Assembly (NCBI RefSeq): GCF_016865485.1 | Contig: NZ_AP024452.1 | Span: forward strand, 1,510,501 to 1,574,500 | Direction of reading: 5' to 3' | DNA from: Luteitalea sp. TBR-22 | GTDB taxonomy: Bacteria > Acidobacteriota > Vicinamibacteria > Vicinamibacterales > Vicinamibacteraceae | DNA: 64,000 nt | Shown: piece by piece, positions 12,997-26,280 of the stretch | How positions within the stretch are numbered: the stretch's first letter is position 1 | Layout of the letters: every line of letters begins with the position of its first letter | Notes under the pieces: model-generated | Database searches by the model: none | What the model was told of the DNA's origin: nothing | Seen by the model: the letters and a program-made list of their open reading frames with translations, nothing else | Program-made: the position numbers and the translations under genes

Positions 12997-14598
12997 TCAG
13001 GAGCCGGCCCGGCCCAGCGCGATCAGGATCTGCGCCAGCACGATCTTCACGATGGTCGTCGCCGGGTAGATCATCGCGTAGCACACCTCGACGCGCTCCG
13101 ACGGATAGCGGCGGTAGGCGTACGCGAGGATGGCTGGCGTGCCGGTGATGCCCGCGGTGACGCCGAGCAGGTCGTCGAACGGGATGTGCATGACGTAGTG
13201 GCCGACCAGCAGCGGCGTCAGCGCGAGCGCGAAGAGGATCCCCGCGCCTGCCGCCAGGTAGACGAGCCCGCCGTTGGCGACCACGTCGACGAACGGCGCA
13301 CCCGACGCCATGCCGACCTGCGCCAGGAACAGCGACAGCCCGAAGTTGCGCAGCGTGAGGTTGGCCGACAGCGGCATCGTCCAGGTGAGCGGGCCGGTGC
13401 GACCGAGCTTGCCGAGGATCAGCGCCGCGATGAGCGACCCGCCGGCGACGCCGACCTTCAGCGTGCCGAGGCCGGGGACGGGGAAGGCGACGGTGCCGAG
13501 CAGCACGCCGAGGACCATGCCGACGCCGAGCGACACGTAGCTGAACTCGGTGGTGCCGCGGATCGAGTCGCCGAAATGCTTGCGCAGGCTGGCGAACGCG
13601 CCGCGATCGGCGAGCAGGCCGACGCGGTCGCCGAGCTCGAAGGTGAGGCCCGGGGTGATCAGCATCTCCGTGTCGCCACGCTGCACGTGCGTCACCGTGG
13701 CCGCGACCCCTGCAGGCAGCTGCAGGTCGGCGACGCGGGTGCCGGCCACCGCCGGGCGCGACACGAAGACGCGCACGAGGTCCATGGCGCTGCGGTCGAA
13801 GACCACCTGCCCGGCCGCGCGCTCGCCCAGCGTCGCGCCGGCCGTCTCGAGCACCTCCCGGTCCTCGCCGCCGAGCAACAGCACATCCTCGTCGCCGAGG
13901 ACGTAGGCCGGATCGGGATGGCGGTTCTCGCCCGCCACGCGGACCACCAGCAGGCTGACCCCCGCGGGCAGGTGCGAGGCGATGTCGCCGAGCGTCCGAC
14001 CGACGACCTGGGGCGAACGGAGCACGATCTCGAGGGTGTGGAGTCCGGACCCGAGTCCGCGCTCGGTGTCCGGCTTGACCACCAACTGCGCCACGTACAT
14101 GCAGAGGATGGCGCCGGCCAGGCCGAACGGGAACGCCACGCTGTAGCCGATCGCCGGTTGGTTGGTGCCGGCCGCTTCCATGGCGGCCTGCATCGTGGCC
14201 GCATTGGTACCCGATCCGGCGAAGATGCCCGCCATCAGGTCGTGCGGCGTGTCCAGCAGCGCCTGCAGCGCCAGGGTCGTCACGGCAGCGGCCAGCAGCG
14301 CCAGGCCGGCCAGCAGGTTGTAACGCCGCCCCTCACGACTGGCCAGGCCGGCGAAGAACTGCCGGCCGAACTGCACCCCGAGCCCGTAGAGGAACATCAC
14401 CAGGCCGAGCGTCCCGACCAGCGCGGGCGGCTGGGCCTTCGGCGCCAGCGCGCCGACCGCCAGCCCCGAGAACAGCACCGCGCCCACGCCGAGCGAGAAC
14501 CCCTTGAGGTCGATGGCGCCGATCGCATAGCCGAGCGCGATGACCAGGAACACCGCGAGCAGCGGCTGTTGGACCAGCAGTGTGGCCAGGAATTCCAT
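12997..14598 (-). CDS. AspT/YidE/YbjL-family transporter with RCK_C domains
   Basis: The 533-residue product has two blocks of about five transmembrane helices (residues 5-170 and 350-530) separated by two TrkA-C (RCK_C) cytosolic domains. Both membrane halves carry the family hallmark (GSGTNAA and the related ITGTPAI). The founding member is the aspartate:alanine exchanger; other members are anion or small-acid transporters of unknown substrate, and the RCK_C domains suggest nucleotide gating. The start at the ATG at 14598 gives a typical N-terminus (MEFLATLLVQQPLL). It lies just downstream of the large anaerobic operon but is separated by a heptamer repeat array. Confidence 0.85.
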   Translation of the reverse strand: MEFLATLLVQQPLLAVFLVIALGYAIGAIDLKGFSLGVGAVLFSGLAVGALAPKAQPPALVGTLGLVMFLYGLGVQFGRQFFAGLASREGRRYNLLAGLALLAAAVTTLALQALLDTPHDLMAGIFAGSGTNAATMQAAMEAAGTNQPAIGYSVAFPFGLAGAILCMYVAQLVVKPDTERGLGSGLHTLEIVLRSPQVVGRTLGDIASHLPAGVSLLVVRVAGENRHPDPAYVLGDEDVLLLGGEDREVLETAGATLGERAAGQVVFDRSAMDLVRVFVSRPAVAGTRVADLQLPAGVAATVTHVQRGDTEMLITPGLTFELGDRVGLLADRGAFASLRKHFGDSIRGTTEFSYVSLGVGMVLGVLLGTVAFPVPGLGTLKVGVAGGSLIAALILGKLGRTGPLTWTMPLSANLTLRNFGLSLFLAQVGMASGAPFVDVVANGGLVYLAAGAGILFALALTPLLVGHYVMHIPFDDLLGVTAGITGTPAILAYAYRRYPSERVEVCYAMIYPATTIVKIVLAQILIALGRAGS

Positions 14599-15456: not shown

Positions 15457-16407
15457 CTACTTGCCACTGCGCCCGAACGCCTCGTCTATGATGCCCCGCA
15501 GGTGGGCCAGCAGTTGCGGCGACGGCGGCTCGAAGTCCTCCATCTCGTACACCCTGCCGAGGAACCCGTACTTGCTCTCCCCGAAGCGCATGTAGGGCAG
15601 CAGCTCGTAGTCCACGACGTTCTTGTGAGGCCTGATGAAGTCGAGCACCGCGCGGATGTGCGCCTCGTCGTCGTTGACGCCCGGGATGAGCGGGGTGCGG
15701 GCGATGAAGGTCTTGTCGGGCCAGGTCTCGTAGGCGCGCCTGATGTTGTCGAGGATGCGGCGGTTGTCGACGCCGGTCCACGTCTTGTGCCGCGCCGGGT
15801 CGGTCAGCTTGTGGTCGTGCAGGACCACGTCGACGTGGGGCAGCACCTTCTCCACGTGCGACCACGGCACGTTGAACGCCGTCTCGATCGCCGTGTTGAT
15901 GCCGCGCTCGTGGGCCCCGGCCAGCAGGGCCGAGGCGAAGTCGGCCTGGAGCTGGCACTCGCCACCGCTCAGCGTCAGGCCCCCACCGGACTCGTGGTAG
16001 AAGCTGCTGTCCTGCTCGACCTCGTCGAGCACCTCCGTGACCGTCATCTCCTTGCCGAAGAGGTACAGCGCCTGCGGCGGGCAGGCGGGCACGCACTTGC
16101 CGCAGTTGGTGCAGAGGTCCCAGTTGATGCGCACGGCGAGGTCGGAGTCGATTGTGAAGATCGCCGACTCCGGGCATTCCTGCAGGCAGAAGCCGCACTC
16201 CACCTTGCCGATGCACTTGCGGGCGTTGTAGGCCAGCTCCGGCCGCGGGTGGATGCTCTCGGGATTGCTGCACCACTTGCACCGCAGCGAGCAGCCCTTG
16301 AGGAACACGGTGGTCCGGATGCCCGGACCGTCGTGCGTCGAGAAGTGCTGGATGTTGAGGATCGTGCCCTTGCGGTCGGCCGGGTTCGCGGCTGGGGGGA
16401 GCATCAC
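15457..16407 (-). CDS. Glycyl-radical enzyme activase (radical SAM, PflA-type with two ferredoxin clusters)
   Basis: The 316-residue product has the radical SAM motif CSLRCKWC at residues 39-46. A ferredoxin insert holds two [4Fe-4S] motifs (CIGKVECGFCLQECP and CTNCGKCVPACP), then GGLTLSGGE, the SAM-binding segment of activases. The insert is typical of activases for dehydratase/decarboxylase-type glycyl-radical enzymes and absent from PflA itself. It takes an electron and SAM to abstract hydrogen from the active glycine of its partner, presumably the enzyme at 23791-26280 in the same cluster. Its ATG overlaps the stop of the PFK-like gene by 4 bp. Activity requires anaerobic conditions. Confidence 0.93.
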   Translation of the reverse strand: MMLPPAANPADRKGTILNIQHFSTHDGPGIRTTVFLKGCSLRCKWCSNPESIHPRPELAYNARKCIGKVECGFCLQECPESAIFTIDSDLAVRINWDLCTNCGKCVPACPPQALYLFGKEMTVTEVLDEVEQDSSFYHESGGGLTLSGGECQLQADFASALLAGAHERGINTAIETAFNVPWSHVEKVLPHVDVVLHDHKLTDPARHKTWTGVDNRRILDNIRRAYETWPDKTFIARTPLIPGVNDDEAHIRAVLDFIRPHKNVVDYELLPYMRFGESKYGFLGRVYEMEDFEPPSPQLLAHLRGIIDEAFGRSGK

Positions 16408-17576
16408 GCCACCTCGCTTTCACCGAGGGAGATGCCGAGCGAGCGGGCGACCTTCACGAACACGCTGCCTGCCGGCACGGTGCGCACCCGGTTGATGGCG
16501 TCGGCGAGGGGTACGAACTGCAGCTCGGGTGGCTGGAAGGTGACCAGCACGCCGGTGCGGTCGGCCTGCAGCGCCCGCACGGCGGCGGCGCCGTACGCCA
16601 GGCCCAACTGCCGGTCGACGGCGGTGGGAGCCCCGCCGCGCACCAACTGGCCGAGCACCAGGGGCTCGGCCGTCTGGTCGGTGGCCCGCTGAAGCTGGCG
16701 CGCCACCGCGTCGGACGCACGCCCCGCCGCCTCGATGACGTAGGCGCCGGCCTGGTCGGTCGATCCGGGGGACAGCGCGGCCCGCAACGGGTCTGTCACC
16801 GTGGCGTCGGCGTTCGCCTCAGTACCGGGACGCGGTCTCGCGCCCTGCGCGACGACCACGAGGCCGGCCGCGCGCCCTGCCTCCGCCTTCTTCCGCAAGC
16901 GCGCCGCGACCGGCGCCAGGTCGTACGGGATCTCGGGGATCAGGATGGCATCGGCGCACACCGCGATGCCCGCCTGCAGCGCGAGCCATCCGGCGTGCTC
17001 GCCGAGTACCTCGACGACGCCGATCCGCCGCGCGCCCTGCGCCGCCTGCCGCACGCGCTCGAGCATGTCGACGGTGAAGCTCAGGGCGCTGTTGAACCCG
17101 AACGAGAGCTGCGTGGCGGCGACGTCGTTCTCGACCGACGTCGGCACGCACACGGTGCGGAGCCCCTGCCGATGCAGCCGGAACAGGATGCTCAGCGCCC
17201 GTGGTCCGACCACGGAGATCACCGCGTCGACGTGCTGCGCCTCGATCGCCGCGATGAGGTCGCCCGAACGGTCCACCTCCGCGATCTGGCTGTCGGCATC
17301 GATCTGGCGGACGTGGAACGGGTCGGTGCGGGTGGCGTTGCCGAGCACCGCGTCGCCGCCCGGCGACAGGCGTTCGGCCATCGCCGGCGTGAGCGTGAAG
17401 AGACCGCCATCCGGGTAGCGTTCGGGGGCCAGCAGGCCGTCGAACCCGTCGCGGATGCCGACCACCTCCCAGCCGAGCTCGTCTGCGGCCAGGACCGTGC
17501 CGGTGACCACGGCATTGAGCCCTGGCACGTAGTTGCCGCCGCAGTTCAGTGCGATGCGCTTGCGTTGTGTCGTCAT
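16404..17576 (-). CDS. PFK-fold (6-phosphofructokinase-like) protein with altered nucleotide site
   Basis: This 390-residue protein keeps several phosphofructokinase landmarks: an N-terminal glycine-rich loop (NCGGNYVPGLNAVV), VEVLGEHAGWLAL near residue 195 and PEIPYD. The ATP/PPi loop, normally GGDGS, reads VVGPRALS, and the catalytic PKTIDND reads PTSVENDV. The usual catalytic aspartate is therefore replaced by glutamate or displaced. It may phosphorylate another substrate or have lost kinase activity. It sits inside the glycyl-radical operon, coupled by a 4-bp overlap to the activase, so a role in that pathway is more likely than glycolysis. The ATG at 17576 puts the glycine-rich loop at the usual distance. 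Confidence 0.75.
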   Translation of the reverse strand: MTTQRKRIALNCGGNYVPGLNAVVTGTVLAADELGWEVVGIRDGFDGLLAPERYPDGGLFTLTPAMAERLSPGGDAVLGNATRTDPFHVRQIDADSQIAEVDRSGDLIAAIEAQHVDAVISVVGPRALSILFRLHRQGLRTVCVPTSVENDVAATQLSFGFNSALSFTVDMLERVRQAAQGARRIGVVEVLGEHAGWLALQAGIAVCADAILIPEIPYDLAPVAARLRKKAEAGRAAGLVVVAQGARPRPGTEANADATVTDPLRAALSPGSTDQAGAYVIEAAGRASDAVARQLQRATDQTAEPLVLGQLVRGGAPTAVDRQLGLAYGAAAVRALQADRTGVLVTFQPPELQFVPLADAINRVRTVPAGSVFVKVARSLGISLGESEVA

Positions 17577-17608: not shown

Positions 17609-18478
17609 TCAGTGCTGGGTCGCAGGCTGGCTCGTCGCGCCTGGCGCGAGCTTCAGCAGCGAGGAGAGTGGGATGAGGATCACGAGGATGAACAGCGTCA
17701 TGACCGCGATCATCAGCATCACGCCGGGCCGGTCGCCGAACACGTCGGCGGCGACCATGACGGCGATGCTGGCGCTGCGCGCGCCGTGCATGTAGCCCAT
17801 CGCCAGGCGGCTGCCGGGATCGGGCCCGCCGAGCAGGTAGCCGATGGCGAAGCCGCCGAGGATGCAGATGATCGCCGCCAGGTTGGCGTAGGTGCCGATC
17901 AGGCCGATGATGCGCTCGTAGTACAGCAGCAGCACGATGCCGGTCAGCAGCAGGACGAAGATGCGCGAGATCTGGTGCAGGTATCCCTCGCACGCGTGCG
18001 CGACCTTCTCCCAGTAGGCCCTGATCACGAGGCCGAGGGTCAGCGGCGCCACGATGGTCAGGCCCAGCTTGACGAGCAGGTGTCCGACCGGCACGTGGGC
18101 ATCGGGGAGGAACACCCCGAGCATCAGCGGCAGGTAGACGATCGTGATGCCGATCGACAGCACCAGCAGCCCGCCCGCGAGCCTGACGTTGGCCCTGGAG
18201 ATGCCGGTGAGCAGCGGGCCGACCTCGGCGCCGGCCGCCATCATCATCAGCACCAGCCCGTACCGCAGGTCCGTGTCGAGCCCGAACTGGCGCGCCAGCA
18301 CGGCGGCCAGGGCCGGCATGATCACGTAGCTGGCGACGACGGCTGAAAGCGTCAGTCGCAGGTTCCGCAACGGACCGAGGATCTGGCCGACGGTCTGTCC
18401 CAGGCCGAGCGCCAGCATGCCGCTGACCACGTAGATCAGGATCACCGGGTGCAGCGCGTGTTCGAGGTATGAGTTCAT
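17609..18478 (-). CDS. BASS (bile acid:Na+ symporter-like) family transporter
   Basis: This 289-residue membrane protein has about nine or ten transmembrane helices and the BASS two-bundle layout. It includes MMMAAGAEVGPLLTGISR in the middle and the C-terminal MGYMHGARSASIAVMVAA, where the crossover helices bind Na+ and substrate. Family members import organic anions such as pantoate, pyruvate and bile acids. It lies between metK and the PFK-like gene in the glycyl-radical operon (58 and 32 bp spacers), which makes it the best candidate importer of the pathway's organic-acid substrate. That assignment is inference from position. Confidence 0.8.
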   Translation of the reverse strand: MNSYLEHALHPVILIYVVSGMLALGLGQTVGQILGPLRNLRLTLSAVVASYVIMPALAAVLARQFGLDTDLRYGLVLMMMAAGAEVGPLLTGISRANVRLAGGLLVLSIGITIVYLPLMLGVFLPDAHVPVGHLLVKLGLTIVAPLTLGLVIRAYWEKVAHACEGYLHQISRIFVLLLTGIVLLLYYERIIGLIGTYANLAAIICILGGFAIGYLLGGPDPGSRLAMGYMHGARSASIAVMVAADVFGDRPGVMLMIAVMTLFILVILIPLSSLLKLAPGATSQPATQH

Positions 18479-18536: not shown

Positions 18537-19718
18537 TCATGCCGACCGTGCCTTGGCCAGCAGTTCGTCGGTCGCGTCGATGTGTTCCCACGTGAACCCG
18601 TTCCGCCCGAAGTGGCCGTAGGCTGCGGTCTTCGCGTACACGGGTTCCCTGAGGTGCAGGTGGTCGATGATTCCCCGCGGCGACAGGGGAAACACCTGCC
18701 GCACCACCGCGGCCAGCGCGTCGTCGCCGATCGTGCCGGTGCCGTAGGTGTGGACCATCACCGAGACCGGGTCGACCACGCCGATGCAGTAGCCGACCTG
18801 CACGAGGCACTGATCGGCCAGGCCGGCCGCGACGATGTTCTTGGCGATGTAGCGGGTCATGTAACCGGCGGACCGATCGACCTTGGTCGCGTCCTTGCCG
18901 CTGAAGGCGCCGCCGCCGTGCACCGACCAACCGCCGTAGGTGTCGACGATGATCTTGCGGCCGGTCAGCCCGGTATCGCCCTGCGGGCCGCTCACCAGGA
19001 ACTTGCCCGTCCCGTTGACGACGATCGTCGTCCGCTCGTCGAGCAGACCGCCGATCACGGGCCGGACGACCTGGTCGACGATCTCCTGCTTGGCCTCGTC
19101 GGTGGTGTGGGTGCCGTCCCGGGTGACCACGGCCGCCGTGTGCGAGGCAGCGATCACCACGTGGTCGACACGCAGCGGCTTGCCGCCCTGGTACTCCACG
19201 GTCACCTGCGTCTTGCCGTCGGGGCCGAGGTACGGCAACTCCTTGCGCTTGCGCACGTCGGCCAGCCGCGTCGCCAGGCGGTGGGCCAACTGGATCGGCA
19301 ACGGCATCAGCTCGGGCGTCTGCGAGCAGGCGTACCCGAACATCAGGCCCTGATCGCCGGCGCCGATCTGCCCGCCTGCCTGCATCACGCCGCGCGCGAT
19401 GTCCGGCGACTGGGCGTGGATGGTGCGCAGGATGGCGGCCGTGTTGACGTCGAAGCCGTACTCCGGCGACGAGTACCCGATGGCGTTGCCGACCTGTCGT
19501 GCGACGTCGGCCGGGTCGAAGAGCGCAGTGCTCGTGATCTCGCCGCCGATGATCAGGGCGCCCATGGTCACGTAGCACTCGCACGCGACGCGGGCGTCCG
19601 GGTCCTGCCGCAGGCACTCGTCGAGCACGGCGTCCGACACCTGGTCGCAGAACTTGTCCGGGTGCCCCTCGGCGACCGACTCCGAGGTGAAGAACATGTG
19701 GTCCGGGTAGGGCGTCAT
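18537..19718 (-). CDS. metK: S-adenosylmethionine synthetase
   Basis: The 393-residue product has family-standard length and motifs: TSESVAEGHPDKFCDQ at the N-terminus, GAGDQGLMFGYA in the middle and the GGGAFSGKDATKVDRSAGY signature. It makes S-adenosylmethionine from methionine and ATP in the cytosol. Its placement inside the glycyl-radical cluster is unusual and would supply the co-substrate of the radical SAM activase encoded two genes downstream. I looked for a SAM riboswitch in the 103-bp leader and could not recognise one. Whether it is the genome's only metK or a second copy cannot be told here. Confidence 0.95.
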   Translation of the reverse strand: MTPYPDHMFFTSESVAEGHPDKFCDQVSDAVLDECLRQDPDARVACECYVTMGALIIGGEITSTALFDPADVARQVGNAIGYSSPEYGFDVNTAAILRTIHAQSPDIARGVMQAGGQIGAGDQGLMFGYACSQTPELMPLPIQLAHRLATRLADVRKRKELPYLGPDGKTQVTVEYQGGKPLRVDHVVIAASHTAAVVTRDGTHTTDEAKQEIVDQVVRPVIGGLLDERTTIVVNGTGKFLVSGPQGDTGLTGRKIIVDTYGGWSVHGGGAFSGKDATKVDRSAGYMTRYIAKNIVAAGLADQCLVQVGYCIGVVDPVSVMVHTYGTGTIGDDALAAVVRQVFPLSPRGIIDHLHLREPVYAKTAAYGHFGRNGFTWEHIDATDELLAKARSA

Positions 19719-19821: not shown

Positions 19822-20397
19822 TCACTGGTAGTACGGGGTCCGGCCGTTGGCGTGCCTGGTGACGTCGCGGACCTCCCGCACCTCCGGCACGCGTCGCTTC
19901 AGGGACGTCTCGATGCCGTCCTTCAACGTGGCGCCTGCCATGCTGCAGCCCTGGCAACCGCCAGACAGCTCGAGGAACACGACGCCGTCCCTGAAGTCGA
20001 TCAGCCTCGACTCGCCGCCATGCGTGGCCAGCGACGGGTTGACCTCCTGCTCGATCGCCTCCTGGATGCGTTCGGCGATCGCGCCTTCCGGAGTGTCGAG
20101 CCGCCGCAGGCCGGTCACGACCTCGAAGTCGCTGCCGACGATCCTGAACACGAAGTCGATGGTGGCGTCTTCGAGGTAGGGAGCGCTCTCCTGCGTGATG
20201 TACACGTCGATTCCCTCGACGCGCTGGACGATGTCGGTGGGCGAGGCCGGTTCTTCCGCGGGCACGAACCGCAGCCCGAAGTCCGCGCGCAGCGGCGAGC
20301 GCGGCACGGCCAGCACCCGCAGTCCCTTGACCGGGGCCTGCAGGCGCTTCCTGGATTCGGCAATCTTCTCGAGGGCGATGTCGGTGATGGTGATCAT
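19822..20397 (-). CDS. NfuA-like Fe-S cluster carrier (A-type-like plus NifU domain)
   Basis: The 191-residue product has an N-terminal region of about 100 residues beginning MITITDIALEKIAESRK, like a degenerate A-type scaffold domain without its cysteines. A NifU domain follows with the cluster-binding CxxC in GGCQGCSMAG. NfuA proteins carry a [4Fe-4S] cluster to apo-enzymes. Here the neighbours include an aconitase X and a triple-cluster activase, both plausible clients. The ATG at 20397 is chosen as the start because the domain begins there and upstream residues are out of character. The next gene upstream ends 29 bp away. Confidence 0.85.
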   Translation of the reverse strand: MITITDIALEKIAESRKRLQAPVKGLRVLAVPRSPLRADFGLRFVPAEEPASPTDIVQRVEGIDVYITQESAPYLEDATIDFVFRIVGSDFEVVTGLRRLDTPEGAIAERIQEAIEQEVNPSLATHGGESRLIDFRDGVVFLELSGGCQGCSMAGATLKDGIETSLKRRVPEVREVRDVTRHANGRTPYYQ

Positions 20398-20426
20398 GGT
20401 TCGAGGGTCGGGTCGGGGCGCGGCGG

Positions 20427-21590
20427 TCAGCAACGCGCGGCGTCGGCCGACAGCCTCCGCGCGGCTTCCTGGATGGCGATACGACGGGTCGCGTCGACAG
20501 GCGCGGCCCTGAAGAAGGTCCTGAGCACGTGGCTGATGCGGCCGTGGACATCGGCCTCGCCAACACCGTGACTCCTGCAGAAGTCCTCGACGAGGCGTCG
20601 GACCAGTTGCCGCACCTCGGGTTCCAGGTGCAGCAACTGCCACGCGCGTGAGTCGGGCGCCCGCCGCCGGACCTCCAGCGTCCTGGTGTTGATCCACCGC
20701 ACGCGCTCGCGCCTGACTCCGCCGCCGTGCCGCGCGAGGTGGAAGACGTCGATCGACGGCGTCTCGATGCCGTCCATCTGGACGACGATCAGGTCGTCCT
20801 CGTGCATGTCGGCGGTGATGCGCTCGAAGTGGCGTGCCCGCTCATCGCGGGGGTAGTGATTCAGCACGTTGCCCAGGAACAGCACGTTCTGGCGCCCAGG
20901 GACGCGCCGCGGCACGTCGGTCGCCTGCAGGACGATCCCGCACTCCGCGAGGCCTTTCTGGAGGGGATTCCACTGCACGCGGTATCCCTCCCACGACGGC
21001 GCCGGGCGGCGGAGGGCGTGAGCCTGCTGCTCGCGGGCCATCCCGGCCTCGATGCGCATGACGTCAGCAGCGAGCAGCGCATCGAGCTCCGGGTCCGAGA
21101 ACGCGACGCGTTCACCCTCGTGCATGAAGGGGCGGCCCATGAAGTACGCCTCCCACACCTCGTTCCCGTGCAGCTCGTAGCAATAGGTCACGGAGGCGAC
21201 CGTGCCCTCGCGGTCGACGACGAAGTACCAGTCGTCGACGTCGCGCGCGGTCTGCGTCGTCGAGATCATCCGGGCGACCGATCGGCGGACCGTCTCGCCC
21301 GGTTCGCCGACCAGCCAGACGCTGGCGGCGGGCACCGCCTCCGGGCGTTCGGTGGCCACGTACTCGACGTCCATGGCGAAGTCGTCGGCCAGCAGCGTCT
21401 TGAGCGCGACGGCGACCTGCGCGCGCGAGACGCCCACATCGATGAATGCGAACGCCGGGCCCAGCAGCGGCGGCTCGTCGCGGCCGGCGTCCCCGGGATG
21501 CTGGAGGTCCCACAGCAGGCTCCCGATACCGACGTTCCGGTCAGGAATGATGTTGGTGTCGACGAAGGGAACCGTCGTGTGCGCCGTCAT
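20427..21590 (-). CDS. Unrecognised protein with a methyltransferase-like segment
   Basis: This 387-residue protein starts MTAHTTVPFVDTNIIPDRN, and I do not recognise it as a whole. The segment FLGNVLNHYPRDERARHFER resembles the end of the Rossmann methyltransferase core in CheR-like enzymes (NVLxYF...R). No clear glycine-rich SAM-binding motif I is visible. The first half includes VWLVGEPGETVRRSVARM and looks like a separate alpha/beta domain. The C-terminal 80 residues are helical, charged and contain one cysteine near each end. The gene lies between the aconitase X large subunit (85 bp) and nfuA (29 bp). It could modify the pathway substrate or act as a chaperone. Confidence 0.6.
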   Translation of the reverse strand: MTAHTTVPFVDTNIIPDRNVGIGSLLWDLQHPGDAGRDEPPLLGPAFAFIDVGVSRAQVAVALKTLLADDFAMDVEYVATERPEAVPAASVWLVGEPGETVRRSVARMISTTQTARDVDDWYFVVDREGTVASVTYCYELHGNEVWEAYFMGRPFMHEGERVAFSDPELDALLAADVMRIEAGMAREQQAHALRRPAPSWEGYRVQWNPLQKGLAECGIVLQATDVPRRVPGRQNVLFLGNVLNHYPRDERARHFERITADMHEDDLIVVQMDGIETPSIDVFHLARHGGGVRRERVRWINTRTLEVRRRAPDSRAWQLLHLEPEVRQLVRRLVEDFCRSHGVGEADVHGRISHVLRTFFRAAPVDATRRIAIQEAARRLSADAARC

Positions 21591-21675
21591 GGCTGGTGAG
21601 TGACCGCGGGTGGTTCGGACGGCGAGGCGCCCCGCTTGCACGGGGCGCCCGCCGTATTGCCGGGTGGAGGCGCCG

Positions 21676-23166
21676 CTAGTCGACCATCGGGCGGGTGCCC
21701 TGGTACAGCGGGCGCTCCTTCTCGCTGTCGAGCCGCTCCTTGCGCGGCTTGCTCCAGTACTCCCAACGCGCGGTCGGCGTGAACACGCCGGTGACGGCCG
21801 CGTTGACCAGCGCCTCGGGGTTGCCGTAGATCCACTTCGGCCCGAAGCCGCCGCCCAGCTTCACGTACTTGAAGCTGTCGGTGGCGATGACCGTGTCCTT
21901 CGGGTAGTGGCGGATCGGCGACATCGCGATGCACGTCTGGTGGAAGATGTGGCCACCGGCGTCCTCGATCGCCTTGGTGTCGCCGTAGTGCTGTGCCATG
22001 AAGTAGGTGGGCGTGTCGGTCTGCACCCACAGCTTCACGCCTTCCTTCACCTTCCTGCCCTTGACCAGGCGCGCCACCTCGCGGACCTCGTCCCAGGTCG
22101 CGTGCGGGCAGCCGAAGACGACGATGTCCACCGGCTTGGCCTTCTCCGGGCCGGGGGCCGGCGAGATCGCGTTGAGGTGGCGGTACATCTCGACGACGTC
22201 TTCCATCGTCACGACGTAGCGCTCGGGGTTCTTCGGCATGTTGCCCTTGAAGGCGGCTTCCAGCGTCGGCGACTCCGGCGTGTAGCCCATCAGGTGCAGC
22301 ATCGGGTCGTTCATGCCCGGCGAGGCGCACGAGATCAGGTTCTTGGTCGCGCCGGGGCCCATCTTCTTGGGCAGGTTCAGCACGGCCATGATCCGGTTGC
22401 CGGCCTTCTCGGCGATGCAGGCGCCGAGGGCGCCCCAGTCGGCCATCCCCTTGATGTTGTCGCGCACCTCGTCGGTCAGTTCGACGATGCACTTGGCGGC
22501 GCGATTCTCATCGAGGTGGCTGCCGTACTTGGGCAGGCAGCCGGTGTAGGCGCAGTAGATCGTGTTGATGGCGGCTTCGCGGTTGGTCCGGGCGCCGAGG
22601 ATCGTGTTGATGTAGCACGCGGCGCTCGACTCGGAGCTGGCCGCGTACTCGCCCATCTTGGGGATGCGCGTGTTGAGGTACGGGTTGCACGAGAGCCAGG
22701 GCAGCCAGCCGTGCTCGGTGAGCTTGTCGTAGCCCGCCTGGAAGCCGGCGACCATCTCCTTGTCGAGCTTGAAGCTCCCCTTGCCGGGGAGTTCGAAGTT
22801 CCACGGCTTGCCATTGGGCGCCGCGTCGAGCTCGTGGGCCTTGTCCAACTGCATCATGTACGGGTCGTTGCCGCACTCGGTGCCGGACTCGTCGTGGACG
22901 TGCGCGTCCTTCATCGCGAAGAGCGGGTCGTAGAGCGGGCTGTGTCCGAGGTCGTACTCGTTCAGCTTCTTGAGGCGCTCGGGCTCCATCCGGTCCTTGA
23001 CGTAGATGGGGCAGCAGTTCAGCGTCAGCACGAGGTCCACCATCTCGGTGGCCTCCACGGCCTTGCCGAAGTCGAGCAGCTTGTCCATGCAGAACTGCTT
23101 GGCCTCGCCATGCTTGCCATCCAGCATCTCCTGCTGGTACTGCGTGAGGGTCATTTTTGATTTCAC
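21676..23166 (-). CDS. Aconitase X, large (catalytic) subunit
   Basis: The 496-residue product begins MKSKMTLTQYQQEMLDGKHG, the usual AcnX opening. It carries SSESSAACYINTILGARTNR, the most conserved AcnX segment, and FGCPHATWDE near residue 375. AcnX enzymes are iron- or Fe-S-dependent hydro-lyases. Known members dehydrate cis-3-hydroxy-L-proline or phosphomevalonate, so a hydroxy-acid or hydroxy-amino-acid dehydration is expected. This is the separate-subunit form with the small swivel subunit 52 bp upstream. Its position directly after a glycyl-radical enzyme suggests it handles the product or precursor of that enzyme. No close functional subtype can be assigned by eye. Confidence 0.85.
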   Translation of the reverse strand: MKSKMTLTQYQQEMLDGKHGEAKQFCMDKLLDFGKAVEATEMVDLVLTLNCCPIYVKDRMEPERLKKLNEYDLGHSPLYDPLFAMKDAHVHDESGTECGNDPYMMQLDKAHELDAAPNGKPWNFELPGKGSFKLDKEMVAGFQAGYDKLTEHGWLPWLSCNPYLNTRIPKMGEYAASSESSAACYINTILGARTNREAAINTIYCAYTGCLPKYGSHLDENRAAKCIVELTDEVRDNIKGMADWGALGACIAEKAGNRIMAVLNLPKKMGPGATKNLISCASPGMNDPMLHLMGYTPESPTLEAAFKGNMPKNPERYVVTMEDVVEMYRHLNAISPAPGPEKAKPVDIVVFGCPHATWDEVREVARLVKGRKVKEGVKLWVQTDTPTYFMAQHYGDTKAIEDAGGHIFHQTCIAMSPIRHYPKDTVIATDSFKYVKLGGGFGPKWIYGNPEALVNAAVTGVFTPTARWEYWSKPRKERLDSEKERPLYQGTRPMVD

Positions 23167-23218
23167 GGTGTTCTCTCTTGAAAGGGTCGTCTCGACGTTC
23201 GATCGGGTGGACGGGACG

Positions 23219-23653
23219 CTAGCCCTTGCGGGTGATGGTCACGGTGGCCTTCTCACCGACCTCGGGCGCGTCGATCTCGACCCAGTCGCCGGTCTTGATC
23301 GTCGCAACCGGGTCCTTGTCGAACGTGTCGACGGCGGGAATCTCACCGGCGATGGCGCCGTTGATGTCGATGTAGTGCACCTGCTGGCAGATGAGGCCGG
23401 CGGGGCCGTGGTGCGAGACCTTGCACTTGTAGTACAGGCTGAAGGCGCCGCTGGTGGAGCCGGCGGTGGTGGGGTAGACGAAGATCTTGCCGGTGACGAT
23501 CTGGCCCTGAGTGTCGGCGCCTGGCGCCATCACCATGCCGTCCTCGTTGCCGACGTGGTTGAAGGCCCAGCCAATGCGCTGCCGATTGACCAGCGCTTCT
23601 CCGGCCGCCTTACCCTTTGACCGTGCAATGCCGGTCAGGACGATTGTCTCCAT
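23219..23653 (-). CDS. Aconitase X, small (swivel, DUF126) subunit
   Basis: The 144-residue product has the beta-rich swivel fold of the AcnX small subunit: SKGKAAGEALVNRQRIGW near the N-terminus and TGKIFVYPTTAGSTSGAF in the middle. Its conserved SGAF/GSTSGA loop is expected to reach the active site of the large subunit encoded next. It is required for hydro-lyase activity with its partner. The start at the ATG at 23653 gives METIVLTGIARSKG, typical of the family. A 137-bp gap with a hairpin separates it from the glycyl-radical enzyme upstream. Confidence 0.85.
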   Translation of the reverse strand: METIVLTGIARSKGKAAGEALVNRQRIGWAFNHVGNEDGMVMAPGADTQGQIVTGKIFVYPTTAGSTSGAFSLYYKCKVSHHGPAGLICQQVHYIDINGAIAGEIPAVDTFDKDPVATIKTGDWVEIDAPEVGEKATVTITRKG

Positions 23654-23790: not shown

Positions 23791-26280
23791 TCAGTTCACC
23801 TGCTCGGTCCGCGCGATGATCTCGGCCTGCTGCGACGGCGACAGCTCCGTGAAGTACGCGCAGTAGCCGGCCACGCGCACCACCAGGTCGCGATACTTCT
23901 CGGGATCCTTCTGCGCCTCGAGCAGCGCCTGCTTGCTGAGGACGTTGAACTGGATGTGCGCGTGCTTCTGGCTGCTCCAGGCGCGAATCAGCTGCATCAG
24001 CCGTCGCGTCCCTTCCTCGCCCGCGACGTTGGCGGGCGCGATCTTCATGTTGAGCAGGTCCTCGCGGTGCTCCTTGTAGATGTGGCAGGTCGCCCTGGCG
24101 ATCGACTGCAGCGTGACCGTCGGGCCCTTGGTGTCGCAGCCGTGCGACGGGACGATGCCGTCGGAGAGGTACTCGCCGGCGGGCCGCCCGTTCGGCGTCG
24201 CCATGGTCACCTTGCCGCACGGGTTGTGGAAGGTGATCGGGATGATGCGCACGTTGGCGCTCTGGCCGTGCGGCCGCGGATGCGCGTGCGCGTACTCCAT
24301 GACCGTCCGCTGGATGCGGTACCCGATCGCGTCCACCCACTCGATGCCGTTGCCGTACTTCGGCGCATTGAGGCAGAGCTGACGGACGGCCTCGCGGCCC
24401 TGCCAGTTCACCTCGAGCGCCTCGAGCAGCTGGTCCCAGGTGAGCTTCTTCGTGTCGAAGATCAGGTGCTTGATGGCGGCCAGCGAGTCGATGCAGGTCG
24501 CGAACCCGCCGAGGCCGTCGATGCACGAGGCGTCGAGCGCCCCCGGGATGTAGTCGGCGTGTGTGTGCAGGTCGCGACCGGCTTCCATGCACAGGTCGTG
24601 CAGGGTGGAGGCCAGTGGCGCCGCGATGTACCGCGGCTTGAGCCCCGCGGCGATGTAGTTCTGGATCATGATGTGCTTGGTGACGTTCTCCAGCTGCAGC
24701 CGGAACGCATTCCACACATCGTCGTAGGTCGCGAAGGTCCGCGGGTCGCCGGTCTTCAGGCCGAACTGCTCGTCGTCGTAGATCTTCATCCGGCCGTCAC
24801 GGAGCGTCATCTCCATGACCGCGCCGTAGTTGATGCCGGCGTTCCCGGTCTTGTGGGTCTCGCGGTTGGGCAGACGCGACTCCGAGCACCCGGACATCGC
24901 GTAATCAAGCGCTTCCTTCTTGACGATCCCGTTGCTCAGGAACCACGGCACGACGAACTCGTCGTTGATCATCTTGGGCGAGCCCTTGCCGTCCTTGATG
25001 GTCTCGGCCACCGCGTGCAGGAACCGGTCGGGCGTGCCGGCGTGGATGCGCACGCCCAGTTCCGGGTAGCTGCTGCGGAGCGGGCGCGTCGACTCGAGGA
25101 TCAGGTAGGACAGCTCGTTGGTCGCGTCGAGGCCGTCGGGAGTCTGGCCGCCGATGGTCACCGTCTCGTGATGCGAGAAGCCCTCGCGCCCCTTGGCCGC
25201 CGACGGCGACATCTGGGACTCGATGCTCTGCATCATGTTCAGCCACAGGCACTGGAACAGCTCCTGGGCGTCCTCCGGGGTGATGCGGCCCTCCTCGAGG
25301 TCCTTCCTGTAGGTGGGATACAGGTACTGGTCCATCCGGCCCTGGTTGACCTGCCCGCCGACCATCTCCTCGAAGCGCGAGAAGAGCTGGGTGAACCACT
25401 GCGCCTGCATCGCCTCGCGGAAGGTCCGCGCCGGGTTCTCCGGGACCCACGCGCAGATGGCGGCGATCTCCTCGAGTTCCTTCCTGCGCTGCGGGTCGGT
25501 GGCGCGTGCGGCCAGGGCGGCGGCCTCTTCGGAGTAGCGCCGCGCGAGCAGGCTCAGGGCATCGCAGGTGATGATCGCCGCCTCGTAGAACGGCTTGCGG
25601 AAGGCCAGGTCGCGCGGGTCGTCGAGGGCCGCCAGGCGCGCCTGCGCTTCCTCGCGCAGCCCCTTGCAGCCGCGGGTCAGCATCTTGGCGAAGTCCGGCA
25701 CCCAGTTCTGCGAATGCCGCATCGTCGACGTCGAGACGATGACGAAGGTCTGCGTGGTGCCGACGTTGGCCGGATCGGAGCCCCAGGTGAAGTGCCTGGT
25801 CTCCGGCGGCAGGGCCTTGATGAAGTTCGGGGTGAAGTCCTTGCCGTTCCAGTACGGGAACAGCACTTCGTCGATGATCCGCTTGTCGTCGTCGGTCACG
25901 GTGACCGCGTCGGGGGCACCCTTGGCGGCGATGAAGGCCTGCGCGCCGGCCTGGATGATGGTGCCATCGAGTTCCGGATACACCAGCGAGTAGCGACCCA
26001 GCCACGTGTTGGGCCGGCCGACGATCAACTCGTCGTCGAGGATCGTCACCGAGATGTGCTCGGCGATGTGGTGCAGGGCCCTGGCCCAGCGCAGGACCAG
26101 CGGCTGGCCCTCGGTGGCCTTGAACGATTCGGTGAAGTACACCGCCCGCTCGAGCGCGACGCGAGGTGGCCCGTAGGCGCGGATGGCGTCGAACATCCTG
26201 AGGACGCGGTCGCTCGCCTTGCCGTGCAGCACCTTGCGGCCTTCGGCAATGGCCCGTTCTTGTGCCGAAATCTCAGTCAC
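23791..26280 (-). CDS. Glycyl-radical enzyme (dehydratase/decarboxylase class)
   Basis: The 829-residue product matches the length of propanediol-dehydratase-like glycyl-radical enzymes. The active-site thiyl cysteine is C465 in SGCSESRLPNRE, with E467 in the C-x-E spacing seen in dehydratases, lyases and decarboxylases rather than PFL, which uses two adjacent cysteines. The radical glycine is G805 in RVAGYCAYF, 25 residues from the end. The enzyme cleaves a C-O, C-N, C-S or C-C bond of an unidentified substrate under anoxic conditions. The start is GTG at 26280, with AAGGAA upstream. The matching activase is in the same cluster. No Fe-S small subunit like that of hydroxyphenylacetate decarboxylase is present and no microcompartment shell genes are seen. 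Confidence 0.93.
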   Translation of the reverse strand: MTEISAQERAIAEGRKVLHGKASDRVLRMFDAIRAYGPPRVALERAVYFTESFKATEGQPLVLRWARALHHIAEHISVTILDDELIVGRPNTWLGRYSLVYPELDGTIIQAGAQAFIAAKGAPDAVTVTDDDKRIIDEVLFPYWNGKDFTPNFIKALPPETRHFTWGSDPANVGTTQTFVIVSTSTMRHSQNWVPDFAKMLTRGCKGLREEAQARLAALDDPRDLAFRKPFYEAAIITCDALSLLARRYSEEAAALAARATDPQRRKELEEIAAICAWVPENPARTFREAMQAQWFTQLFSRFEEMVGGQVNQGRMDQYLYPTYRKDLEEGRITPEDAQELFQCLWLNMMQSIESQMSPSAAKGREGFSHHETVTIGGQTPDGLDATNELSYLILESTRPLRSSYPELGVRIHAGTPDRFLHAVAETIKDGKGSPKMINDEFVVPWFLSNGIVKKEALDYAMSGCSESRLPNRETHKTGNAGINYGAVMEMTLRDGRMKIYDDEQFGLKTGDPRTFATYDDVWNAFRLQLENVTKHIMIQNYIAAGLKPRYIAAPLASTLHDLCMEAGRDLHTHADYIPGALDASCIDGLGGFATCIDSLAAIKHLIFDTKKLTWDQLLEALEVNWQGREAVRQLCLNAPKYGNGIEWVDAIGYRIQRTVMEYAHAHPRPHGQSANVRIIPITFHNPCGKVTMATPNGRPAGEYLSDGIVPSHGCDTKGPTVTLQSIARATCHIYKEHREDLLNMKIAPANVAGEEGTRRLMQLIRAWSSQKHAHIQFNVLSKQALLEAQKDPEKYRDLVVRVAGYCAYFTELSPSQQAEIIARTEQVN

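Follow-up and report, generated by a model that had tools for sequence, protein, structure and literature searches.

Gene cluster at the locus

The window analysed in this work is a 64,000-nucleotide stretch of the genome of Luteitalea sp. TBR-22. Its minus strand carries a run of genes leading from a glycyl radical enzyme (GRE) to a protein with a phosphofructokinase (PFK) fold, designated here PFKL, and then to a GRE activase, after which come a carbonic anhydrase and an AspT/YidE-type transporter. In the order of the run, the features are as follows (designations such as L050 refer to loci).

23791..26280, minus strand: glycyl radical enzyme (GRE), 829 aa; PF02901/PF01228; NF048011 992.2 bits (cut-off 1000)
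23219..23653, minus strand: aconitase X swivel domain subunit; PF01989 62.8 bits (cut-off 27)
21676..23166, minus strand: aconitase X catalytic subunit; PF04412 298.9 bits (cut-off 31.5)
20427..21641, minus strand: conserved protein of about 400 aa with an uncertain start; all family matches under cut-off; relatives in the L050 and L053 clusters
19822..20400, minus strand: NfuA-like Fe-S carrier; NifU domain PF01106 79.5 bits; TIGR03341 128.4 bits (under the cut-off of 269.35); start approximate, as the open reading frame extends to 20697 and the family match begins near residue 102
18537..19718, minus strand: second S-adenosylmethionine synthetase (MetK) of the genome; TIGR01034 522.7 bits (cut-off 309.4)
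17609..18478, minus strand: SBF/BASS-type transporter; PF01758 58.7 bits (cut-off 24.3)
16404..17576, minus strand: PFKL, PFK-fold protein with altered nucleotide and sugar-phosphate sites; open frame of 390 aa; PF00365
15457..16407, minus strand: GRE activase (radical SAM), 316 aa; TIGR02494 339.6 bits (cut-off 174.35); C39/C43/C46
14767..15417, minus strand: carbonic anhydrase; PF00484 129.6 bits (cut-off 25.7); relatives in the L049 and L052 clusters
12997..14598, minus strand: AspT/YidE-type transporter; TIGR01625 184.4 bits (cut-off 71.95); PF06826 207 bits

The GRE of the window possesses the thiyl Cys465, the Glu467 of the CxE motif and the radical Gly805, and the CxxxCxxC motif of the activase (C39/C43/C46) is intact. 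The stop codon of PFKL is overlapped by the activase start over 4 nt (GTGA), or over 1 nt with the in-frame ATG as start codon, so that the translational coupling of the two genes assumed in the original prediction is plausible from the sequence. The genome encodes another PFK (L002), which is 38% identical to PFKL and has canonical motifs.

MetK and the NfuA-like gene are not general features of the cluster. Of 16 cluster stretches searched outside the window, several of them short, one has MetK (L054) and one has the NfuA-like gene (L049). The two MetK copies of the genome are 48% identical to each other, and a 76% relative of the window copy is located between the GRE and PFKL in L054. The protein encoded at 20427–21641 shares 55–56% identity with proteins of the L050 and L053 clusters. 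The split aconitase X (21676–23653, small and large subunit) has counterparts of 85–91% identity in L052 and L053, where the GREs are 84–88% identical, which suggests the recent spread of a defined pathway. The combination of aconitase X with a glycyl radical enzyme was not found in any paper in our search of open-licence literature.

Active site and predicted fold of PFKL

PFKL matches the Pfam PFK family PF00365 (204.8 bits, cut-off 30.9), and it falls below the cut-offs of all 11 NCBIfam PFK models that it matched. It is not a member of TIGR02483 (PFK_mixed; 244.2 bits, cut-off 430.55), nor is it a PPi-dependent PFK by the NCBIfam cut-offs, the best match being to NF041103 (86.8 bits, cut-off 550). 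Residues 115–246 of PFKL align with residues 93–224 of the Bacillus PFK (4i4i) without a gap in the HMMER alignment, which allows each replaced position to be assigned. In canonical PFKs residue 103 serves Mg-ATP binding, residue 127 is the catalytic base, and residues 243 and 249 contact fructose-6-phosphate.

In the PFKL of the window GGDGS is replaced by VGPRA, with P125 at the position of D103, and TIDND by SVEND, with S147 at T125 and E149 at D127; the replacement of nucleotide and catalytic motifs, which was the core of the original prediction, is thus confirmed. Two other motifs that were thought to have been kept are altered at their key residues. The N-terminal glycine loop GGD reads GNY (GGY, AGY or AGF in most relatives), and D12 is therefore lost; the VEVMGR..G motif reads VEVLGEHAG, so that R171 is lost as well (E193). 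In addition, R243 is replaced by E304 and H249 by Q310.

These replacements are a property of the whole group, as follows from the comparison of 15 PFKL sequences (a 16-row alignment less the truncated L061) with 21 canonical, lower-identity PFKs taken from 30 lower-identity loci. At site 12 all 21 canonical sequences have Asp, and all 15 PFKLs have lost it, having Tyr, Phe or Ile instead. The GGDGS Mg-ATP loop is lost in 15/15: the Asp at site 103, invariant in the canonical set (21/21), gives way to Pro, Gly, Ala or Ser in every PFKL, and G104, likewise present in 21/21 canonical sequences, is kept in none. The Thr at site 125 (21/21) is Ser or Ala in all the PFKLs, and the Asp at site 127 (21/21) is Glu in 14 of 15 and Asp in one. 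Arg171 is found in all 21 canonical sequences and in 0/15 PFKLs; Arg243 and His249 are both present throughout the canonical set, and no PFKL keeps either of them. PFKL therefore lacks what marks an ATP-dependent phosphofructokinase, namely Asp103 of the donor loop, the catalytic Asp127 and the Arg243/His249 pair. The replacements being common to the clade across phyla, a local sequencing error is excluded. A conserved subfamily with the same residues and proven phosphofructokinase activity, named in the original prediction as the counter-case, was not found.

Part of the pocket is retained. In the full 16-row alignment E149 is present in 15 rows, as is D151 (D129 in canonical numbering), and all 16 rows have a basic residue at site 162 (R/K184), Arg or Lys at site 252 (R/K313) and Glu or Gln at site 222 (E/Q244). 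Some residues that are atypical for canonical PFKs are themselves conserved among the 15 PFKLs: E149 (14/15), N162 and Q201 (15/15 each) and R176 (14/15). At some sites (N15, Q244, E304) the divergence of the window copy is greater still.

Membership in the PF00365 fold is borne out by the predicted structure as well as by the profile: the PFKL model superimposes on 1pfk with a VIA-align Z of 35.9 and an rmsd of 2.2 Å over 319 residues. The pLDDT of this model was 81.6 with canonical PFKs included in the alignment and 75.6 in an earlier model built without them. An extra segment at about 254–282 has a pLDDT below 50 in both models; a [KR]AxLSP motif lies in this segment in 14 of 16 rows, the exceptions being L060 and the second copy in L059.

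Distribution of PFKL and its position before the activase

A scan of a genome collection (84,980 species) with a two-row alignment returned 43 loci, 13 of them at 52–74% identity and the rest at 42% or less, except for a 53-residue fragment at 63% (L091); L092, L161 and L208 were added by later searches. In a tree that includes one poorly aligned sequence (L106, branch 6.7), PFKL is monophyletic with respect to 31 other PFKs (support 100/100), the nearest of these being L093 (98/90). Identity to the window PFKL across phyla is 49–73%, and 63 columns are invariant. According to record titles and labels the hosts belong to Planctomycetota, Verrucomicrobiota, Myxococcota, Thermodesulfobacteriota, Pseudomonadota, Acidobacteriota, Bacteroidota, Balneolota and Hydrogenedentes. 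The protein is rare: clade-level scores were obtained in 2/396, 1/314 and 3/317 genomes, counts that include known carriers (the window genome in the first, the sole carrier in the second and two of the three in the third). The cluster is patchy: 6 further genomes from the genus or family of the window organism were sampled, and none gave a GRE match at E ≤ 1e-50. A further PFK-family match is present in 12 of 14 PFKL host genomes, and both canonical motifs were seen in 9.

The original prediction asked whether the homologues sit beside glycyl-radical genes, and they do. In all 16 readable loci (the window, L049–L060, L092, L161 and L208) the activase is encoded on the same strand and begins −4 to +26 nt from the stop of PFKL. 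Two of these loci, L161 and L208, came to light once the pattern had already been noted, and both obey it. L061, which ends inside PFKL and leaves the next gene unreadable, stands outside this count, and the activase of L055, at a contig end, reads in two frames. The exception to the pattern is a tandem PFKL copy in L059 with no activase directly after it. This second copy (13312–14457; Bacteroidota) belongs to the same cluster and is devoid of the [KR]AxLSP motif. Of the 16 loci, 15 also contain a GRE match; in L050 none was seen in the 18 kb examined of its 21.9 kb contig. Among 82 loci with other PFK-family genes neither an activase nor a GRE match was detected; one of these is the fragment L091 and many extend only about 1.5 kb to each side, and the result remains informative on adjacency because a flank of that length would still show an adjacent gene.

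PFKL follows the activase across different GREs

The GRE of the window lies near the isethionate and DHPS lyases and, with 992.2 against 1000 bits, is not an HpsG by the NF048011 cut-off. It differs at positions that we take to be sulfonate contacts. Three residue names sought for such contacts were not found in the accessible part of PMC6453916. The GREs linked to PFKL carry different active-site motifs in separate clades (GCSES, GCMEC and ACVGS, for example). The second GRE type, seen in L055, L057, L058, L059, L061 and L209 (the last placed here by 71% identity), has a canonical radical glycine and ACVGS at the thiyl cysteine in place of the GCxE of the other PFKL-linked GREs, and it falls under all the curated NCBIfam cut-offs (five full or near-full sequences tested). 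The activases of L056–L059, beside this second type, have lost several of the auxiliary Fe-S motif cysteines of the window activase, and a ferredoxin-like protein is encoded near PFKL and the activase in L056, L057, L059 and L209. A weak SsuA-like binding protein occurs in L057–L059 and a CoA-disulfide-reductase-like protein in L057 and L059.

In a tree of 60 activases, 13 of which come from HpsG-type loci, the PFKL-linked activases (13 of 16) form one clade with 100/100 support; L054 and L055 (partial), L208 (found later), 6 near-duplicate loci picked out by hand and matches with fewer than 260 aligned residues were left out. For the GREs, a single clade of the PFKL-linked members is rejected with a p-AU of 0.0019 in a tree of 44 that holds 10 of the 15 linked GREs (without sequences below 550 aa, namely the linked GREs of L049, L054, L056 and L161, and without L092 and L208/L209). 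The GRE of the window and its relatives fall together with 14 PFKL-less GREs over the HpsG cut-off, and the GREs of L055, L057–L059 and L061 are placed elsewhere in the tree. From the genome sample that also covered the 6 relatives of the same genus or family, 4 of the 16 non-window GREs entered the tree. The separation depends on adding the HpsG/IslA-like GREs: in a narrower tree, with outgroups only from the class of the window, the linked GREs are not separated (one change, support 91/73), and the wider tree carries a long-branch warning. The comparison activases and GREs were both drawn from few phyla, and long branches are present.

Of 30 GRE loci retrieved by means of the HpsG model, none has PFKL within about 1.5 kb and 25 have an activase match; PFKL is likewise absent from the 14 loci examined whose GRE exceeds the HpsG cut-off (14 of 18 such matches). 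The genomes G510 and G512 each hold PFKL modules (L060 and L161; L208/L209) together with a PFKL-less HpsG-like GRE (L184; L186), and these two HpsG-like GREs have an activase of their own. Distances between PFKL and activase are correlated at 0.93 (13 loci), those between PFKL and GRE at 0.81 and between activase and GRE at 0.84 (11 loci). Since the two latter correlations also exist, all three proteins are co-inherited to a degree; since the linked activases form one clade and the linked GREs do not, PFKL follows the activase rather than one GRE chemistry.

Possible role of PFKL

Residues needed for the normal PFK function have been lost from PFKL while its gene stays directly before that of the activase in many phyla, and PFKL therefore probably helps to control or assemble the activase switch. 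We consider it somewhat more probable than the opposite that PFKL is a PFK derivative which is no longer a phosphofructokinase and now serves one clade of GRE activases as a dedicated partner. A role in the activation step is the best reading because the fold is kept, the donor loop is gone and the acceptor site incomplete, the protein is conserved across phyla, and it stays with the activase while the GRE changes. Judging from the genomic linkage, PFKL and the activase would act together, physically or functionally.

The fuller proposal, that PFKL is a new component of radical activation, a PFK-derived pseudoenzyme travelling as a module with one activase clade and serving varied GREs, possibly with gating by a metabolite, is put forward tentatively, at slightly short of an even chance. 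PFKL may bind the activase or the activase–GRE pair and may gate or support installation of the radical, the direction of the effect being our supposition. The remodelled PFK pocket could sense a metabolite, at a guess an adenine nucleotide, SAM or a by-product, or an anion. In the window operon the second MetK and the NfuA-like protein might form a supply kit of SAM and Fe-S clusters for the activase, an arrangement that is not general.

The original prediction left a choice between a kinase for another substrate and a non-catalytic role. A non-PFK role tied to the activase is favoured because the Mg-ATP loop is lost in 15/15 sequences, the next gene is the activase in 16/16 loci and the GRE partner changes; the kinase survives as the main rival, although we regard it as unlikely. 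Its substrate would be a sulfo-sugar, for instance, or a small acid of the GRE pathway. Catalysis on another substrate is conceivable because some pocket residues remain, namely E149, D151 and two basic residues; the window GRE is close to sulfonate-cleaving GREs, and some of the partner GREs are similar to sulfonate lyases. A PF00365 kinase for sulfofructose, SqiK, has been described (PMC9594981) and offers a comparable case. However, such a kinase would have to work without the Mg-ATP loop and for partner GREs that lie in separate clades with different active-site motifs, and no sugar isomerase or aldolase was found among those neighbouring proteins that were scanned.

The clade-wide conservation of the atypical residues E149, N162, Q201 and R176 could instead reflect a new enzyme other than a kinase, such as a hydrolase or isomerase acting on a phosphorylated or anionic compound shared by these GRE pathways, or an enzyme salvaging 5'-deoxyadenosine, the by-product of SAM. 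This seems to us quite improbable, as the GRE partners differ and the by-product flux of a low-turnover activase would hardly need a dedicated enzyme.

The patchy occurrence of the cluster (0/6 sampled genomes of the genus or family) would fit a passenger, that is, a decaying PFK paralogue on a horizontally moving GRE–activase cassette, but loss or breakage would then be expected, and the 49–73% identity across phyla, the 63 invariant columns, the order kept in 16/16 loci, the recurring replacements and the persistence with different GRE types make this very hard to credit. The reading of PFKL as an ordinary phosphofructokinase that is active despite divergent motifs, for which the PF00365 match and the predicted fold might speak, is highly improbable in view of the clade-wide loss of donor- and acceptor-site residues, the scores under the NCBIfam cut-offs and the other PFK-family match in 12 of 14 host genomes.

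The usual set for GRE activation consists of the activase, SAM, an electron donor and the GRE itself. If PFKL is indeed a partner of the activase, a glycolytic fold standing beside one activase clade adds a component, and possibly a control point, to this process; the difficulty of activating some GREs in foreign hosts may have its cause here, and PFKL would be a clear example, from bacteria, of a pseudoenzyme derived from a PFK. Among open-licence papers we did not find a PFK-fold protein paired with a GRE activase described, and a text search of the main text of PMC6453916 and PMC11528403, as far as it was accessible, gave no occurrence of the word "kinase".

Comparison with known systems

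PFKL resembles bacterial PFK-A and the TIGR02483 PFK_mixed family in fold over its full length and differs from them in its score under the cut-off, in the lost catalytic and binding residues and in the extra segment at about 254–282. With SqiK, the PF00365 kinase that acts on sulfofructose in the sulfo-EMP2 pathway of Firmicutes (PMC9594981), it shares family membership and a pathway context of organosulfonate chemistry; as far as the published description accessible to us allows the comparison, SqiK is a kinase in a sugar pathway, whereas PFKL has no donor loop.

The HpsG/HpsH and IslA/IslB sulfonate GRE systems are close described counterparts of the window GRE and its activase. The GRE scores 801.8 bits to 5ymr and 764.9 bits to 6lon and the activase 378.9 bits to NF048010, and both stay under the curated cut-offs (992.2 of 1000 and 378.9 of 430, respectively).

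Accessory proteins of GREs include the small subunits of benzylsuccinate synthase and hydroxyphenylacetate decarboxylase, and GrcA; they are small iron-sulfur or glycyl-domain proteins, each belonging to one GRE. PFKL is like them in being a partner encoded together with GREs and activases. Unlike these small proteins bound to a single GRE, it is a 390-aa protein of the PFK fold that follows a clade of activases across GRE types.
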